Positions 1 to 11,952 of a DNA stretch of 22,724 nt are shown in pieces. The stretch is from Anaerolineales bacterium UBA7227 (GTDB lineage Bacteria > Chloroflexota > Anaerolineae > Anaerolineales > Villigracilaceae). The DNA lies in the NCBI GenBank assembly GCA_002473085.1, contig DKTP01000075.1, positions 1 through 22,724 of the forward strand, given 5' to 3'. Each line of letters begins with the position of its first letter. Position 1 is the first letter of the stretch. The position numbers were made by a program, and so were the translations under genes. The notes beneath the pieces are model-generated. The model did no database searches and had not been told where the DNA came from. It worked only from the letters and a program-made list of their open reading frames with translations.

Positions 1-450
1 TTCGTGTGGCTGATCTTCCTGCCCAACGCGCCCTACATTATCACCGATTTCAAACACCTGGCTGAGCCAAGCGCCAGCGTCCCCGACTGGTTCGACGTGA
101 TGCTGCTGATGTGGTTCTCGTGGACGGGGATGCTCCTCGGCGTCGTCTCCCTCTACCTGATGCAGGATATCGTCCACCGCGAATTCGGACGCTGGGTCAG
201 CTGGATCATGGTCTTCGTCGTCTCCGTGTTGAGCGGACTCGGCGTCTACATCGGGCGTTTCATCCGCTGGAATTCGTGGGACATCTTCGCCGACCCGAAA
301 GGCATCGTCCGGCAATTCATCGTCGGCGCGCAAGACCCCAGCCTGCGCTCCATCGGCTTCACGGTCATCTTCGCGGGATTCTTCCTCTTCGTCTACGTCA
401 CGCTGTACGCCTTCGGGCATCTGCTCATGGAACCTGTCAGGGAAAAATGA
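1..450 (+). CDS. DUF1361 family membrane protein (5' truncated by window edge)
   Basis: The frame is open from base 1, so the N-terminus lies outside the window; about 149 residues remain. Seen: a W-L-I-F-L-P-N-A-P-Y-I-I-T-D-F motif at the beginning, then several hydrophobic helices separated by short loops, and a G-R-F-I-R-W-N-S-W-D motif near the middle. The LPNAPY..TD and GRF.RWNSWD signatures are those of the DUF1361 family of integral membrane proteins, whose function is unknown. The stop codon overlaps the next gene's ATG (ATGA at 447-450), so the two are probably translationally coupled. Family assignment is fairly secure; the role is not known. Confidence 0.8.
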   Translation, partial: FVWLIFLPNAPYIITDFKHLAEPSASVPDWFDVMLLMWFSWTGMLLGVVSLYLMQDIVHREFGRWVSWIMVFVVSVLSGLGVYIGRFIRWNSWDIFADPKGIVRQFIVGAQDPSLRSIGFTVIFAGFFLFVYVTLYAFGHLLMEPVREK

Positions 451-1253
451 ACCAACGCATCCTCATCCGCGGCGGCGGGGACCTCGCCAGCGGCGTCGCG
501 CTCCGTCTCCACCACGCGGGATTCGACGTGGTCATCGCCGAACTGCCGCGTCCGCTCGCGGTGCGACGCCTCGTCTCGTTCTCCGAGGCGGTCTACGCGG
601 GACAGATCGTCGTCGAAGACGCGGCCGCCCGCCTCGTCACGCCCGACCAGATCGAGTCGACTCTCGCCCGACGCGAAATCCCCGTCCTCGTCGATCCCGA
701 AATCAACCAATTACCAATTACCAATTACCAAATTATCATAGACGCCCGCCTCCTTAAGACTTCCCCCCGCCCGCTCCCCGCCCCGGTCCCGCTTCACATC
801 GGACTGGGTCCCGGCTTCACCGCCCCGCGCGACTGCCACGCCGTCATCGAGACGCGCCGCGGCCACACCCTCGGACGCGTCTACTGGCAGGGAGGCTCCG
901 CGCCCGACAGCGGACAGCCCGAAGGCGACCCGCGCCGCGTCCTGCGCGCCGACGCCGACGGGACCCTCGTCTCGCACGCGGCCATCGGCGACCATCTCGA
1001 AGCGGGGCAACTCGTCGCCGAGATCCATTCAAAGATTGAAAATCGAAAATCCGAAATCGTCAGCCCCTTCAAAGGCGTCCTGCGCGGACTGCTCCCCGAC
1101 GGCATGGAAGTGGCCCGCGGCCTGAAACTCGGCGACGTGGACGAGCGCGACGATCCCGCCCTGTGCCGCCTCGTCTCCGACAAAGCCCTCGCCATCGGCG
1201 GCGGCGCGCTGGAGGCCATCCTGTCGTTCCTCCATTCGTCCAGCCTGCCTTAA
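447..1253 (+). CDS. YqeB-like selenium-dependent molybdenum hydroxylase system protein (EF2563 family)
   Basis: A 268-residue protein. The ATG at 447 was chosen because it overlaps the upstream stop (ATGA) and begins the conserved nucleotide-binding-like start I-R-G-G-G-D-L-A-S-G-V-A (residues 7-18); the longer open frame upstream lies entirely inside the DUF1361 gene. Family features seen: A-E-L-P-R-P-L-A-V-R-R (31-41), V-Y-A-G, G-L-G-P-G-F-T-A (119-126) and a C-terminal A-I-G-G-G-A-L-E-A (249-257). Members accompany labile-selenium molybdenum hydroxylases, but their exact biochemical role is unsettled. No hydroxylase gene is in view. Residues about 87-98 and 195-204 are encoded by AT-rich 7-bp repeat arrays that look inserted into an otherwise GC-rich gene. 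Confidence 0.82.
   Translation: MNQRILIRGGGDLASGVALRLHHAGFDVVIAELPRPLAVRRLVSFSEAVYAGQIVVEDAAARLVTPDQIESTLARREIPVLVDPEINQLPITNYQIIIDARLLKTSPRPLPAPVPLHIGLGPGFTAPRDCHAVIETRRGHTLGRVYWQGGSAPDSGQPEGDPRRVLRADADGTLVSHAAIGDHLEAGQLVAEIHSKIENRKSEIVSPFKGVLRGLLPDGMEVARGLKLGDVDERDDPALCRLVSDKALAIGGGALEAILSFLHSSSLP
706..734 (+). repeat. In-frame heptamer array, unit ACCAATT, inside yqeB-like gene
   Basis: Three exact ACCAATT units (706-712, 713-719, 720-726) are followed by one unit with an extra A (727-734). It encodes roughly residues 87-98 of the YqeB-like protein, including Q-L-P-I-T. It is much more AT-rich than its surroundings. The complementary unit (GGTAATT) recurs at 10172-10185 inside a FemAB gene, in the same orientation relative to coding. 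Confidence 0.92.
1031..1058 (+). repeat. In-frame heptamer array, unit GAAAATC, inside yqeB-like gene
   Basis: Two exact GAAAATC units (1038-1044, 1045-1051) are flanked by the decayed units AAAGATT (1031-1037) and CGAAATC (1052-1058). It encodes the Lys/Glu/Asn/Arg/Ser/Ile-rich stretch at residues about 195-204. This is a second AT-rich heptamer array in the same gene, with a different unit. Confidence 0.85.
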
Positions 1254-5738: not shown

Positions 5739-5801
5739 CGCCGCGACCTTGCAGCAAGGCGCGGGGTTGTCATTGTCATCAAAACGCCATTGGAGGATTG
5801 C

Positions 5802-8372
5802 ATGAAGAAACTCGGCAAGTTTTTGTTGCGGGGATTGATCGTGGTCGTCGTGCTTGCGCTGATTGCGGGCGCGGGCGGGGCGTATTATTTCAAGTCGTAC
5901 CTGCCCAAGACCGTCGCGCTGAAGTCGTTCCCGCAAATTGACGGGGAGATCAAGATGGACGGCCTGGACGGCGCGGTGGACATCTACCGCGACCAGATGG
6001 GCATCCCGCACATCTACGCGTCCACGACGCACGACCTGTTCTTCGCGCAGGGATACGTCCACGCGCAGGAACGCTTCTGGCAGATGGACGCCTGGCGGCA
6101 CATCGGCTCGGGGACGCTTTCGGAGATGTTCGGCGCGGGACAGGTGAAGACCGATTCGTTCCTGCGTACGCTCGGCTGGAAACAGGTGGCGGAAAAGGAA
6201 TACGAGCAGCTCAGTCCCGACGCGAAGGCCATCGCAGACGCGTATGCCGACGGCGTGAACGCCTACCTGAAAGACCATGACGGCGACGCGGTCAGCCTGG
6301 AATACGCCATCGTGAAACTGCTCAGCCCCGATTACAAGATCCAGCCGTGGACGCCGGTCAATTCGTTGACGTGGGGCAAGGCCATGGCCTGGGACCTGGG
6401 CGGCAACATGGACGACGAGATCGAACGCGCCGTCCTGTTGAAGACGCTCACGCCCGAACAACTGGCGGAGATCTTCCCCGCGTATCCCGAAGATTACCCG
6501 GTGATCGTGCCGAAGATCGGGAATCAGGCTTCGGCGCGCGGCGATTCTCCGTCGGAGATCGGTTACTCGTCGCTGCCCGGCGTGGACTTCCAGTCCGTCA
6601 CGGACAATTTCGCGCGAGTGGACGCGCTCCTCGGCCCGCGCGGGTCGGCCATCGGCTCGAACAGCTGGGCGGTCTCCGGCCAGTTGACGACCACCGGCAA
6701 ACCCCTGCTCGCCAACGACATGCACCTCGGCATTCAAATGCCGTCCATCTGGTTCCAAAATTCCCTGCACTGCGCGCCGAAATCGGACGCCTGTCCCTTC
6801 GAGGTGACCGGCTTCTCGTTCGCGGGCGTGCCGGGCGTCGTGGCGGGTCACAACGACCGAATCGCCTGGGCGTTCACCAACCTCGGGCCCGACGTGCAAG
6901 ACCTGTACATCGAGAAGGTCAATCCCGACAATCCGAACCAATATGAAGTAGACGGCAAATGGGTGGACTTCGAAACGCGCAAGGAGACCATCGGCGTCGT
7001 CGGCGGCGAGGCGGTGGAGATCACCGTCCGCGTCACGCGTCACGGCCCCGTCATCTCCGACACGTACGGTCCGCTCAAAGACAACGTGGATCCCAAATCG
7101 GAAGCCACGCCGTTCAAGGATAAAGCCGGCATCGAACTGCCGCAGAACTACGTCATCGCCCTGGCGTGGACGGCGCTCAGCCCCAACTCGCCCTTCGAGG
7201 CTATCTGGGGATTCAACCGGGCGCAAAACTGGGACGAGTTCCGCGCCGCGGCCCGCATGTGGTCCGTCCCGGCGCAGAATCTGTTGTACGCCGACGTGGA
7301 CGGCAACATCGGCTACCAGACGCCGGGCAACATCCCCATCCGCAAGAACGGCGACGGCACGCTCCCCGTCCCCGGCTGGGACAGCCAATACGACTGGACG
7401 GGCTACATTCCGTTCGACGAACTGCCCTACGTCTTCAACCCGCAGAGCGGCTACATCGTCACCGCCAACAACCAGGCCAACCCGCGCGGCTATCCCTACC
7501 TCATCACCAAAGACTGGGACTACGGACAGCGCGCCGCCCGCATCGTGGACATGATCGTCAACGCGCCGGGCAAGATCGACGCGGCCTACATCCAGTCCAT
7601 GCACGGGGACTCGAAGAGTCTCAACGCCGAAGCCCTCGTCCCGGTTCTGCTCTCGGTCAACCTGGACCCGCGAGCGGCCTCCGTCCGAGATCAATTCCTC
7701 GCCGCGTGGGACTACCAGGAGCGCGCCGACTCCCAGGCCGCCTTCGTCTTCGAATCGTTCTGGGTCAACCTGCTGACCGACGCGTTCAAAGACGACCTGC
7801 CCAAAAATTACCGGCCTGGCGGCGGCTCGCGCTGGTACCTGGTGATGCGCGGCCTCGTCCAAAAGCCAGACAGCCCCTGGTGGGACGACAAGTCCACCGC
7901 CGACAAAGTCGAGACCCGCGACGACATCTTCGTCCGCGCTTTCAGCGAGACTGTCGCGCAGATCGAAAAGGAATACGGCAAAGACGCCGCCAAGTGGCCC
8001 GCCTGGGGCAAACTCCACACCGCCACTTTCCGCAACCAGACGCTCGGCGAATCGGGGATCGGCCTCATCGAAAACCTGTTCAATCGCGGGCCGTTTGTCA
8101 CCGGCGGCGGCGAGAGCATCGTCAACGCGACGGGATGGGCGATGGGCAGATCCTTCGAGGTGGACTGGCTCCCCTCCGAACGCGAGATCGTGGACCTGGG
8201 CAACCTCGACGCCTCGCTTGCCCTGCACACCACCGGGCAATCGGGACACGCGTACCATCCGCACTACGACGACATGATCCCGTTGTGGGCAGACGTGCAG
8301 TACCAGCCGATGTGGTGGGACCGCCAATCAGTCATTGACCACAGCGAGGCGCATCTCAGACTGACGCCTTGA
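5802..8372 (+). CDS. Penicillin acylase family protein (Ntn hydrolase, S45)
   Basis: An 856-residue precursor. The ATG at 5802 was chosen because GGAGG lies five bases upstream; the TTG at 5790 overlaps that Shine-Dalgarno. Seen: one N-terminal membrane helix or uncleaved signal (about 7-27); an alpha-chain region with D-G-A-V-D-I-Y-R-D, G-I-P-H-I-Y-A and Q-E-R-F-W-Q-M-D; then the self-processing site A-I-G|S-N-S-W-A-V-S-G with the catalytic Ser at residue 286; N-D-M-H-L; and a beta-chain N-N-Q-A-N-P with D-W-D-Y-G-Q-R-A. Members hydrolyse amide bonds, such as N-acyl homoserine lactones, acyl amino acids and beta-lactam side chains. The exact substrate is not readable. It is exported and probably membrane-anchored, with its own promoter, and ends just before the hairpin at 8398. 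Confidence 0.93.
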   Translation: MKKLGKFLLRGLIVVVVLALIAGAGGAYYFKSYLPKTVALKSFPQIDGEIKMDGLDGAVDIYRDQMGIPHIYASTTHDLFFAQGYVHAQERFWQMDAWRHIGSGTLSEMFGAGQVKTDSFLRTLGWKQVAEKEYEQLSPDAKAIADAYADGVNAYLKDHDGDAVSLEYAIVKLLSPDYKIQPWTPVNSLTWGKAMAWDLGGNMDDEIERAVLLKTLTPEQLAEIFPAYPEDYPVIVPKIGNQASARGDSPSEIGYSSLPGVDFQSVTDNFARVDALLGPRGSAIGSNSWAVSGQLTTTGKPLLANDMHLGIQMPSIWFQNSLHCAPKSDACPFEVTGFSFAGVPGVVAGHNDRIAWAFTNLGPDVQDLYIEKVNPDNPNQYEVDGKWVDFETRKETIGVVGGEAVEITVRVTRHGPVISDTYGPLKDNVDPKSEATPFKDKAGIELPQNYVIALAWTALSPNSPFEAIWGFNRAQNWDEFRAAARMWSVPAQNLLYADVDGNIGYQTPGNIPIRKNGDGTLPVPGWDSQYDWTGYIPFDELPYVFNPQSGYIVTANNQANPRGYPYLITKDWDYGQRAARIVDMIVNAPGKIDAAYIQSMHGDSKSLNAEALVPVLLSVNLDPRAASVRDQFLAAWDYQERADSQAAFVFESFWVNLLTDAFKDDLPKNYRPGGGSRWYLVMRGLVQKPDSPWWDDKSTADKVETRDDIFVRAFSETVAQIEKEYGKDAAKWPAWGKLHTATFRNQTLGESGIGLIENLFNRGPFVTGGGESIVNATGWAMGRSFEVDWLPSEREIVDLGNLDASLALHTTGQSGHAYHPHYDDMIPLWADVQYQPMWWDRQSVIDHSEAHLRLTP

Positions 8373-9769: not shown

Positions 9770-10960
9770 TCACGCGCCCGCAGCCTGGCTGGCTTTTCGT
9801 TTTCCGCGCGAGCGCATCACGTCCAGCAGGCGCGGGATGAATTCGGAATACATGCGATACCAGAATTTGTTCGGAGCGTAGTCCCACGCGCCGAGGGTAC
9901 GGACGACGCGGCCGCCGAGTCCCTCTTTGAAGCGATAGACGCCCCACATTGAATCAGTCTCGTCGAATATCTCCGGCGCGCCCCACAGGTCGTAGACCGC
10001 GCAGCCCGCGGATTTGGCGCGCTTCATCGCCTCCCATTGCAGGAGGTAGGTCGGCATTTTTTCGCGGTGCGAGTCGCGCGACATGCCGTAGACGTAGTAC
10101 GCGCGGCCCGCGAACATGAAGAGGAACAGACCGGCTACCGGCTCGCCGTCCACTTCGGCAATGAGCGGGATGGTAATTGGTAATTGGGGATTGGAGATTG
10201 GAGATTTGACATTCGACATGAAGGTCTGCCAGACGGTTTGGTAATAGCCTTCATCGCGGATGACAAAGCCGTCGCGGACGGAGGTCTCCGCGTACATGCG
10301 ATAGAGCGCCGCCAGGTCTGCCGTTGTGCCAGCGCGCACGATGACGCCTTTCTTCTCCGCCAAACGGACGTTGTAGCGCGTCTTCTGTTTCATGCGCGCC
10401 AGCAATTCCTCCTCGGACGGACGGAGGTCGATCAAGACCGAATTGCGGAATTGGATCTGGTCAGCGGAGTAGACCCAGCCGCGCCGCGTCAACCCCGCCT
10501 GGAGGTCCGCGCCGAGGCGTTCCTCGGTCGAGCCGTCCGCGCCGGGGACGCCCGTCCCCAGCCTCACGTCGGGATCCATCTTGAGGAAGACCGCGCCCTG
10601 CTTTTTGGCGAAGGATTGCAGGTCGTCGAGGACGCGCTCGCGGAGAGGTTGATCCGTCCAATCGAGCAAGGGACCTTTGGGACAATACAAGACGCTTAAC
10701 CGCGCCGCGAACCCGCGAATTGGGACGGCGCGCTTCAAAATCAGGCTGGCGGCGATACAGTGATCAGTGTCCAGTGTCCAGTTTTCAGTACGATCACTGG
10801 TCGCTGAAAACCGACTCTCAGTCCAGACCGCGTAAAACGGTTCCCATCCATACCGCGCCTTGACCTGTCCCCATTCGAAGGTTTGGAGGAAGTGAGGGTT
10901 GGGAAGGCGCGAGAGCGCGGCGTCCCACGCGGCGGAGCGGACGATTGAAGTTTCCATCAT
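9770..10960 (-). CDS. FemAB-like aminoacyl/peptidoglycan-bridge transferase (paralogue 1)
   Basis: A 396-residue protein. The ATG at 10960 was chosen because it overlaps the upstream FemAB stop (ATGA at 10960-10957); a second ATG directly follows. Two GNAT-like halves are seen with the FemABX signature A-R-M-K-Q-K-T-R-Y-N-V-R-L-A-E-K-K-G-V (188-206), shared almost exactly with its neighbour. K-M-P-T-Y-L-L-Q-W-E-A-M-K (301-313), Y-D-L-W-G-A-P (323-329) and M-W-G-V-Y-R-F-K (338-345) follow. Characterised members add amino acids from aminoacyl-tRNA to lipid II stem peptides; others act as N-acyltransferases on polysaccharides. The context favours envelope modification, but the substrate is open. 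Two AT-rich heptamer arrays interrupt it (residues about 54-69 and 249-264), in loops outside the conserved motifs. Confidence 0.87.
   Translation of the reverse strand: MMETSIVRSAAWDAALSRLPNPHFLQTFEWGQVKARYGWEPFYAVWTESRFSATSDRTENWTLDTDHCIAASLILKRAVPIRGFAARLSVLYCPKGPLLDWTDQPLRERVLDDLQSFAKKQGAVFLKMDPDVRLGTGVPGADGSTEERLGADLQAGLTRRGWVYSADQIQFRNSVLIDLRPSEEELLARMKQKTRYNVRLAEKKGVIVRAGTTADLAALYRMYAETSVRDGFVIRDEGYYQTVWQTFMSNVKSPISNPQLPITIPLIAEVDGEPVAGLFLFMFAGRAYYVYGMSRDSHREKMPTYLLQWEAMKRAKSAGCAVYDLWGAPEIFDETDSMWGVYRFKEGLGGRVVRTLGAWDYAPNKFWYRMYSEFIPRLLDVMRSRGKRKASQAAGA
10172..10220 (-). repeat. In-frame heptamer array (GGTAATT / AATTACC family) in FemAB paralogue 1
   Basis: On the + strand there are seven consecutive 7-bp units: two GGTAATT (10172-10185), GGGGATT, two GGAGATT (10193-10206), then two decayed units to 10220. 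The unit's complement is a circular permutation of ACCAATT, the array unit at 706-726. It encodes residues about 249-264 of the FemAB protein, including Q-L-P-I-T, the same pentapeptide as in the YqeB-like protein. Confidence 0.92.
10758..10792 (-). repeat. In-frame heptamer array (CAGTGTC family) in FemAB paralogue 1
   Basis: Five units on the + strand: CAGTGAT (10758-10764), two CAGTGTC (10765-10778), CAGTTTT (10779-10785) and CAGTACG (10786-10792). Looser related words continue to about 10820. It encodes roughly residues 56-67 of the FemAB protein (T-E-N-W-T-L-D-T-D-H), with a Ser/Thr/Asp-rich run before it. The unit differs from the other array in the same gene. Confidence 0.88.
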
Positions 10961-11952
10961 CCGCCTTCGCGTCCCGCCATGCGCCACAGATAAAGTTTGT
11001 ACAACAACGAATTATAGACGCGATCCACCGCCTGCCGCGCGCGCATCAACTCTCCGCCGAAGCCGCGCTTGAAACGATAGACTCCCCACAGGCCGTCGCG
11101 GCGCGTCTCGAAGTTTTCCTCGAGCGTCTTTTCGTCTTCGTCGGGGACGCCCCACAGATCGTACGTCTCCGCGCCTTTGGAGCGCGCCCACTTCATCGCC
11201 TCCCATTGCAAAAGGTAAGTCGGCATAAGATTGCGGTTCTCGTCCGTGGACGCGCCGTATATGTACCAGGCGCGGCCGCCGCGGGCGAAGACCATCAGCG
11301 CGGCGAGCGGCTTTCCCTCGAACTCGGCCATCAGCAATTCCGCCATGCCTTTCGGACGGAACAACTTATAGGCGCGGCGATAATATTCCAGCGAGTGGAC
11401 TCCGAAGCGGTCGCGCGCGCCCGTCGTCAGCATCATTTTGTGGAAGGCGGGGATGTCGTCCCAGGCGCGGACGGTCACTCCCTTTTTCTCCGCGAGTCGG
11501 ATGTTGTAGCGCGTCTTCTGCTTCATGCGTGCCAGGATTTCAGCCTCGGTCCCTTTTATGTCAACGAGGATCGTGCGAGGGGGCTGGATGTTATGGAAAG
11601 AAGTTTCGAGATTCAGGTTCCAGGTTTCAAGTTTTTGGTTCTCCCAAAGATCGGGTTCGATTTTAAGAAAGACCGCGCGGCGTTTTCGACAAACCAAATC
11701 CACTTCCGTCCAAAACCGATCGCTGCTCACTGATGATTGATCGCCGAACACCGGCTTCGGCGCGTACGCAATCGTGAATCCCAGCGGCAACTTGCGGAAC
11801 AAAATCTGGATTCCAGAATCGCCAGAGACCATCCGCGCCGCGTCCCAGCCAAACGCCGACTTCAACTCCCCCCATTCGCCCGTCTGGAGGATGTGCGCGT
11901 CGGGATGTCCCTCCAAAAAACGATTCCATTCAGCAAGCGACACTTCTGCCAT
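10957..11952 (-). CDS. FemAB-like aminoacyl/peptidoglycan-bridge transferase (paralogue 2)
   Basis: A 331-residue protein from the ATG at 11952. Seen: an L-Q-T-G-E-W-G (22-28) N-terminal motif parallel to L-Q-T-F-E-W-G in the next gene, A-R-M-K-Q-K-T-R-Y-N-I-R-L-A-E-K-K-G-V (141-159), then N-L-M-P-T-Y-L-L-Q-W-E-A-M-K, Y-D-L-W-G-V-P and L-W-G-V-Y-R-F-K-R-G-F. This is FemABX architecture. The shared motifs with its neighbour point to a tandem duplication followed by divergence, or a heterodimer-type pair as in FemA/FemB. It is 25 bases after the dehydratase gene and overlaps paralogue 1 by 4 bases. Two heptamer arrays sit in loops (residues about 70-80 and 104-118). Conserved active-site regions are intact. 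Confidence 0.87.
   Translation of the reverse strand: MAEVSLAEWNRFLEGHPDAHILQTGEWGELKSAFGWDAARMVSGDSGIQILFRKLPLGFTIAYAPKPVFGDQSSVSSDRFWTEVDLVCRKRRAVFLKIEPDLWENQKLETWNLNLETSFHNIQPPRTILVDIKGTEAEILARMKQKTRYNIRLAEKKGVTVRAWDDIPAFHKMMLTTGARDRFGVHSLEYYRRAYKLFRPKGMAELLMAEFEGKPLAALMVFARGGRAWYIYGASTDENRNLMPTYLLQWEAMKWARSKGAETYDLWGVPDEDEKTLEENFETRRDGLWGVYRFKRGFGGELMRARQAVDRVYNSLLYKLYLWRMAGREGG
11602..11643 (-). repeat. In-frame heptamer array (RGTTTCA family) in FemAB paralogue 2
   Basis: Six consecutive 7-bp units on the + strand: AGTTTCG (11602), AGATTCA (11609), GGTTCCA (11616), GGTTTCA (11623), AGTTTTT (11630) and GGTTCTC (11637). All align to RGTTTCA. It encodes residues about 104-117 (E-N-Q-K-L-E-T-W-N-L-N-L-E-T), read from the minus strand. 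Confidence 0.88.
11715..11742 (-). repeat. Decayed heptamer array (GATCAGT family) in FemAB paralogue 2
   Basis: Four 7-bp units on the + strand: ACCGATC, GCTGCTC, ACTGATG and ATTGATC. The coding-strand consensus is about GATCAGT, a permutation of the CAGTGAT unit seen at 10758. It encodes residues about 70-79 (G-D-Q-S-S-V-S-S-D-R). It is weaker than the other arrays. Confidence 0.5.

Follow-up and report, generated by a model that had tools for sequence, protein, structure and literature searches.

Why do two unrelated proteins encoded on one stretch of the Anaerolineales bacterium UBA7227 genome share the pentapeptide Q-L-P-I-T, with a seven-base tandem repeat behind it in both genes? The stretch (all 22,724 nucleotides analysed here, hereafter the window) encodes the peptide as NPQLPITIPL in a FemAB-type protein and as NQLPITNYQ in an XdhC/YqeB-type protein. 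The two arrays have the same orientation relative to coding, and in both respects our reading agrees with an earlier note on this DNA. The features that matter for the question are given below, a slot being a place in a protein where arrays sit.

447..1250, plus strand: XdhC/YqeB-type gene, named from its database relatives, with no Pfam family at threshold.
706..731, plus strand: CCAATTA in 3.7 perfect copies, slot 1 of the XdhC/YqeB gene, encoding QLPITNYQ.
1032..1058, plus strand: GAAAATC-type array, slot 2 of the XdhC/YqeB gene, encoding KIENRKSEI.
9773..10987, minus strand: FemAB/FemX-type aminoacyl (peptidoglycan bridge) transferase gene, host of the array in question (Pfam FemAB, 3.6e-52; start codon putative).
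10171..10219, minus strand: heptamer array of seven units (ATGTCRA, ATCTCCA, ATCCCCA, ATTACCA), slot 2 of the FemAB gene, encoding MSNVKSPISNPQLPIT.
10758..10789, minus strand: second array of the same FemAB gene, slot 1, ACTGNNN units, from the period-7 search.
10758..10815, minus strand: the same array as a whole with a degenerate inverted CAGTNNN arm, which lies 5' of the ACTGNNN units in the gene and extends to about 10815 (by eye).
10960..11952, minus strand: second FemAB-type gene, a paralogue (FemAB2), identified by Pfam.
11602..11634, minus strand: heptamer array (AAACTTG / AACCTGG type) in the paralogue, encoding KLETWNLNLET.

The FemAB gene has FemX (6snr, 1ne9) and FemA (1lrz) as its relatives by sequence and fold. 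Its slot 2 array, which the earlier note had put at 10172..10220, is real and lies one base off, at 10171-10219. On the coding (minus) strand its units are, in order, ATGTCGA, ATGTCAA, ATCTCCA twice, ATCCCCA and ATTACCA twice. The array is thus heterogeneous: the description of it as the complement of the unit at 706-734 holds for the last units (ATTACCA), which alone represent the CCAATTA family of 706-731, and fails for the others. A weak period-7 row (TCACGCG, 15% indels) was also seen at window positions 7021-7044, within a large gene at 5790-8372.

Since 7 and 3 are coprime, arithmetic alone makes all three frames of a strand translate a perfect heptamer array into one identical cyclic heptapeptide. 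CCAATTA yields PITNYQL, and its reverse strand meets TAA. It follows, again from arithmetic and not from an assay, that an array whose sense strand is stop-free is harmless in every frame, and this frame-independence is a simple reason why a 7-base period could be tolerated inside genes. The earlier note had gone further and suggested that arrays in genes are constrained to the one stop-free strand. For the CCAATTA family this stands: predicted genes contain 15 arrays in the CCAATTA sense and none in the TAATTGG sense (4 in the own genome, G000, where the gene model missed the XdhC array, and 11 in G007, a second genome of the same species, so that the sets overlap). As a general rule outside that family we reject it, since, with every family counted, the coding arrays that are stop-free in every frame number 18 of 39 on the sense strand and likewise 18 of 39 on the antisense strand.

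If the pentapeptide were ancestral, orthologues should keep it. An exact QLPIT, at whatever position, is present in 23 of 121 FemAB rows and in 6 of 121 XdhC rows (in each case the query and the best 120 of about 7,970 matches), so it is absent from most of them. Loop DNA was compared for 44 loci and the query (a 45th, partial locus, L063, gave no loop). Loop 2 of FemAB orthologues holds AATNNCC (encoding SPITNYQLP), AACGTTN (NVERLTLNVQ), AAGTTNN/AACCTNN (KLEGSQVSTF..SNLPTCEP), GTCNNCC (TVHGQPS) or TTCATCC (SSFILHPSSF) families, and in some orthologues it is short and array-free (L054, L029). Even within the species the FemAB of G007 has QSPIT, not QLPIT, and 2 of the 7 units of the 10171-10219 array differ there. 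By contrast, the closest six relatives (P0001-P0005 plus the fragment P0040, at 92-99% identity) retain the loop 2 family, of SPISN type, which speaks against family replacement; in four of these, loop 1 lacks a clear array peptide. Since different repeats occupy the same loop in different species, the shared QLPIT goes back to a common DNA repeat and not to a common protein ancestor: it is a repeat-encoded sequence, not a conserved motif. This bears out the earlier proposal of a dispersed repeat behind both peptides, and the orthologue comparison it had called for gives the same answer. Peptides such as QLPITNYQ, SVISDQSSVTENW and SSFILHPSSF in Anaerolineales proteins are repeat-encoded and hence unfit as motifs or as evidence of homology.

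Repeats of this kind are far more common than chance would give. The 16-mer CCAATTACCAATTACC matches the own genome (3.02 Mb, 182 contigs) 18 times at 16 places, whereas its reversed control has no match. In 518 kb comprising the window and related loci, 46 repeats were scored at lag 7 and none after shuffling; lags 4, 5, 6, 9, 10 and 11 gave 0-1 each, lag 8 gave 8, lag 14 gave 17 and lag 16 gave 8. In a 255 kb sample of the own genome, strict thresholds leave 18 repeats at lag 7 against 2 at lag 6 and 1 at lag 9, whereas at loose thresholds lags 6, 9 and 7 are equally common (38, 40 and 31), with lags 6 and 9 as frequent as codon periodicity would make them. Across 1.11 Mb of loci (several genomes, some stretches included twice) we counted 205 lag-7 arrays in 77 necklace classes, 23-72 bases long (5-95% range), against 35, 33 and 51 at lags 6, 8 and 9. 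The distribution over the phylum is patchy. In a sample of 301 genomes the CCAATTACCAATTACC 16-mer occurs in 10 of the 18 that belong to the same family, with 246 matches (overlaps counted) versus 5 for the control, and outside the family in 3 of 283 genomes with one match each; within the family the copy number runs from 0 to 102, two genomes holding 102 and 63 and others none.

Predicted coding ORFs, which make up about 80% of the sequence under a rough gene model, contain 39 of 77 arrays in G000 and 103 of 160 in G007. Under that model (and with 3 of the 40 G000 stretches picked for holding the repeat) arrays appear depleted in genes, yet not mostly intergenic. Artefacts of metagenome assembly can be ruled out as their origin: the better assembled G007 (4 contigs) has most of the arrays at the same places. 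Contig ends of C7, C11, C12, C22, C26, C27, C31, C43, C114 and C115 lie in heptamer arrays or a few bases from them, so the arrays probably break short-read assembly.

Inside genes the arrays are confined to few positions. The 45 FemAB genes (L063 dropped) carry 68 lag-7 arrays, against 0.85 expected per codon-shuffled set, and 60 of these fall in two loops, 35 at residues 50-79 and 25 at residues 250-269; at least one array is present in the two main slots in 35 of the 45 genes. Seven others lie in the first 31 positions, some possibly before the start codon as the rows run from stop to stop, and one near the C-terminus; the lag-7 search of the 45 genes found no further FemAB arrays. In an AlphaFold2 model (pLDDT 77.8) slot 1 lies between strands 60-64 and 79-89, and slot 2 links helix 246-257 to strand 271-279. 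At the place of loop 2, S. aureus FemA (1lrz) and 6snr have about 53 and 56 extra residues, which we take to be the coiled-coil arm. Two slots are also apparent in the FemAB paralogue, with 29 arrays around residue 70, 29 around residue 110 and 10 elsewhere (raw counts with no shuffle control, from 41 rows: the query and 40 loci, L061 and L077 being from one genome and the split or partial L024 and L032 left out). XdhC has 17 arrays in 30 genes (those with loci, of 56 genomes matched) where 1.1 are expected, and 14 of the 17 cluster near residues 90 and 190-209.

Slot lengths bear on whether arrays were added or substituted. The FemAB2 slot measures 35 or 36 residues in 29 of 41 rows, including array-free ones (L049, L050, L053, L056, L059), the remaining 12 rows having 37-67; for XdhC slot 1 the range is 24-29 residues over all 30 rows and 24-26 in the six read as carrying arrays. 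Such near-constant lengths indicate that array sequence often replaced native sequence and was not added to it. FemAB loop 2 is more variable (6 to 102 bases of compared stretch), and with arrays it is longer than the shortest loops, which fits insertion. By eye, period-9 (GTTAGACCA type) and period-8 (AACGTTNN) arrays also occur in the FemAB slots that hold heptamers in other species (L043, L044, L045 and L060 in loop 1, L037 and L061 in loop 2).

The family found at loop 2 has no phylogenetic signal, while that of loop 1 keeps it. On a tree of the FemAB core (45 rows, loops excluded, family labels assigned by hand, with L036 labelled as having none in spite of a weak array) loop 2 requires 26 family changes against a shuffled mean of 27.3, with 154 of 500 shuffles at or below this number; loop 1 requires 14 against 27.8, a value reached by 0 of 500 shuffles. 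A label-free comparison agrees: k-mer sharing in loop 2 is not correlated with core identity (rho 0.07, P-value = 0.14), whereas 8 of 8 control windows (0.25 to 0.53) and loop 1 follow it. Among pairs with at least 90% core identity the loop 2 family is common to 2 of 11, and L024 and L032, at 92% core identity, differ in family at both loops. At the much shorter distance between G000 and G007 (about 1% DNA divergence) no array with a changed family was seen by eye; the next genomes with DNA for comparison are about 79% identical or less in protein.

Within the species the arrays change faster than other DNA. In 187.5 kb of G000 aligned to G007 in pieces of at least 1 kb, 37 arrays pass the search threshold in at least one genome, 31 of them in both, and 34 are recognisable in both at a looser threshold. 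Mismatches amount to 49/1437 (3.41%) in arrays and 1805/185,925 (0.97%) outside (Fisher exact test, P-value = 2e-13). More than half of the array mismatches, 26 of 49, fall in four arrays, and 16 of the 37 arrays have none; with the four most changed arrays removed the rate is still raised (23/1160, P-value = 0.002). The four indels found in arrays measure 7, 7, 14 and 21 bases, each a multiple of 7, against 1 of 23 outside. None of the 25 arrays in predicted genes has an indel, compared with four indels in the 12 other arrays (P-value = 0.007; coding was called by a simple codon model, and the XdhC gene that it missed in G000 was added by hand for this count). Mismatches number 41/970 in coding and 8/467 in other arrays. 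Weak evidence comes also from array substitutions matching the base 7 positions away, 43 of 48 versus 1369 of 1798 outside (P-value = 0.04). Phase-variable simple sequence repeats change length in whole-unit steps. The arrays resemble them in this, but none of the 25 coding arrays changed length between the two genomes and thus no on/off switch is seen there.

The slots, the family differences between orthologues and the indels in steps of seven, observed together with elevated change, point to a dispersed heptamer-repeat system and not to an element with recognisable ends. We consider it probable that the FemAB array is one of many degenerate heptanucleotide tandem repeats spread through the genome, STRR-like in their repeat features, that turn over at tolerant slots. 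Under this explanation arrays within genes would survive mainly in a few structurally tolerant slots and would change more quickly than the rest of the DNA, through replacement of units and steps of 7 bases, only length-neutral changes being kept in genes; over longer, species-level times the unit family at a slot may be replaced altogether. The proposed mechanism at the molecular level is slippage or unit conversion, and new families may originate by copying from other arrays of the genome. A slot's family might change by gradual unit drift, by copying from a different array, by a fresh insertion or through short recombination tracts.

Some data speak to copying in particular. At 11 of 27 loci, versus 5.3 after shuffling (P-value = 0.004), a FemAB array has 10-mers in common with further arrays of the locus, those of the neighbouring paralogue included. 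Distant arrays of G007 share composite words above a unit-permutation null at all four lengths (for 14-mers 215, null maximum 174); in G000 this is so at length 14 only (41, null maximum 40) and not at 16-20. These mixed results suggest copying between arrays within a genome. A stronger version, in which heptamer arrays form a pool spread over the genome and, copied into one another without change of length, keep overwriting loops of conserved enzymes, we put forward tentatively, as a possibility that is rather less probable than its opposite. If true, loops would diverge between species at a far higher rate than the remainder of the protein, and the arrays would represent a satellite-like conversion system on coding DNA, tolerable through the frame-independence of the 7-base period.

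The most serious alternative, though an unlikely one, is a discrete small mobile element, similar to Rickettsia palindromic elements (RPE), that inserts in frame where the protein tolerates it and later disappears. Such an element would be expected to leave different families in one slot, and it would fit the short array-free loops of L054 and L029, the patchy copy number, the 10-mer sharing within genomes and the greater length of FemAB loop 2 with arrays. It would also fit the locus L140:7680, where G007 lacks 21 bases and with them almost the whole array, the only one among the 37 arrays of the two genomes that looks like a filled/nearly-empty pair. An element of this kind, as the earlier note had implied by the word, should have ends; none were found, the flanks of the FemAB and XdhC arrays have no obvious likeness by eye, and many heptamer families behave alike. 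The 34 of 37 arrays recognisable in both genomes and the near-constant slot lengths of FemAB2 and XdhC slot 1, which speak for replacement, also count against it. A viral carrier is unsupported: the 16-mer is present in 34 virus stretches of 2.9 million contigs, about what chance would give by a rough estimate.

It is improbable that horizontal transfer, with homologous recombination importing FemAB alleles that carry another array, accounts for the pattern. Import would explain why loop 2 loses its signal while the rest of the gene keeps it, but as the control windows and loop 1 do keep it, the imported tracts would have to be very short and centred on loop 2. Slightly less probable still are regulatory RNA hairpins maintained by selection. 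Among the seven sequences folded, some inverted pairs of loop 1 do form structures (z of -2.39 for window 10740-10830, -4.44 for L023 and -2.72 for L039), whereas the arrays at 706, 1038 and in FemAB2 fold no better than shuffles (z of 0.15, 0.01 and -0.25), and for the array at 10171-10219 (z of 0.03) we reject such a role. A conserved functional motif of FemAB and XdhC, with repeats due to convergent codon usage, is hardly credible and we reject it, for in spite of the recurrence of exact QLPIT among the best matches of both proteins, G007 has QSPIT, relatives have NVERLTLNVQ, KLEGSQVSTF, SSFILHPSSF or TVHGQPS at the same place, and the DNA periodicity of FemAB is far above codon-shuffled controls.

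Heptamer repeats as such are already known, from cyanobacteria (STRR), Xanthomonas (GGGAATC) and Beggiatoaceae (TAACTGA) (PMC4692102, PMC2670836, PMC4679880); what is new is a variant with coding slots whose families differ between species. According to these papers, the known repeats also have dispersed 7-base units, degenerate in Xanthomonas, with inverted or hairpin arrangements reported, and our arrays share with STRR the excess of the 7-base period and the dispersal of degenerate units of several families over the genome. TAACTGA read in reverse encodes a repeating heptapeptide, and its reverse-orientation copies lie in 11 ORFs, mostly of hypothetical proteins or near protein ends (PMC4679880). 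The repeats described there are mostly or preferentially non-coding, whereas many arrays of these uncultured Chloroflexota occupy slots in the interior of conserved enzymes and, unlike the STRR types described, belong to different families at one slot in different species.

Like RPE, the arrays are repeat sequences read in frame within conserved but unrelated proteins that also have element-free orthologues. RPE are about 150 bp long with a conserved peptide (PMC10969869), while heptamer arrays have no unit element and no conserved peptide, and no ends were found: no palindromic element of that size was found, the arrays being 23-72 bases long and the two compared flanks unlike by eye. PARCEL repeats are likewise tandem, dyad-symmetric and coding and are thought to shuffle within genomes, but they have 25-residue units in ORFs lacking assigned functions (PMC2996958), against 7-base units here. 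Our literature search, which covered few subscription journals, found no report of heptameric tandem repeats in Anaerolineae or Chloroflexi and, among the papers covered, no description of family replacement at fixed slots of conserved proteins. Slots that can be compared across many orthologues offer a direct measure of how arrays arise, change family and are constrained.

Several smaller features were noticed at these loci. By eye, palindrome-like sequences (CCCTGAGC...GAAGGG; GAGTGCGACGACTCCC...) lie within slot arrays of FemAB and FemAB2 or replace them (L053, L055, L031, L051, L052). L139 differs from G007 by 42 bases with one more copy of the palindromic AATCCGAAAGTTCTACTTTCGG, possibly a recent insertion or loss of a small element. 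Between its FemAB genes (L109:12405-12829) G007 has about 460 extra bases that encode a HicB-like antitoxin and a HicA toxin (Pfam) and are missing from the window, and its FemAB starts with an N-terminus different from that of the window's protein.
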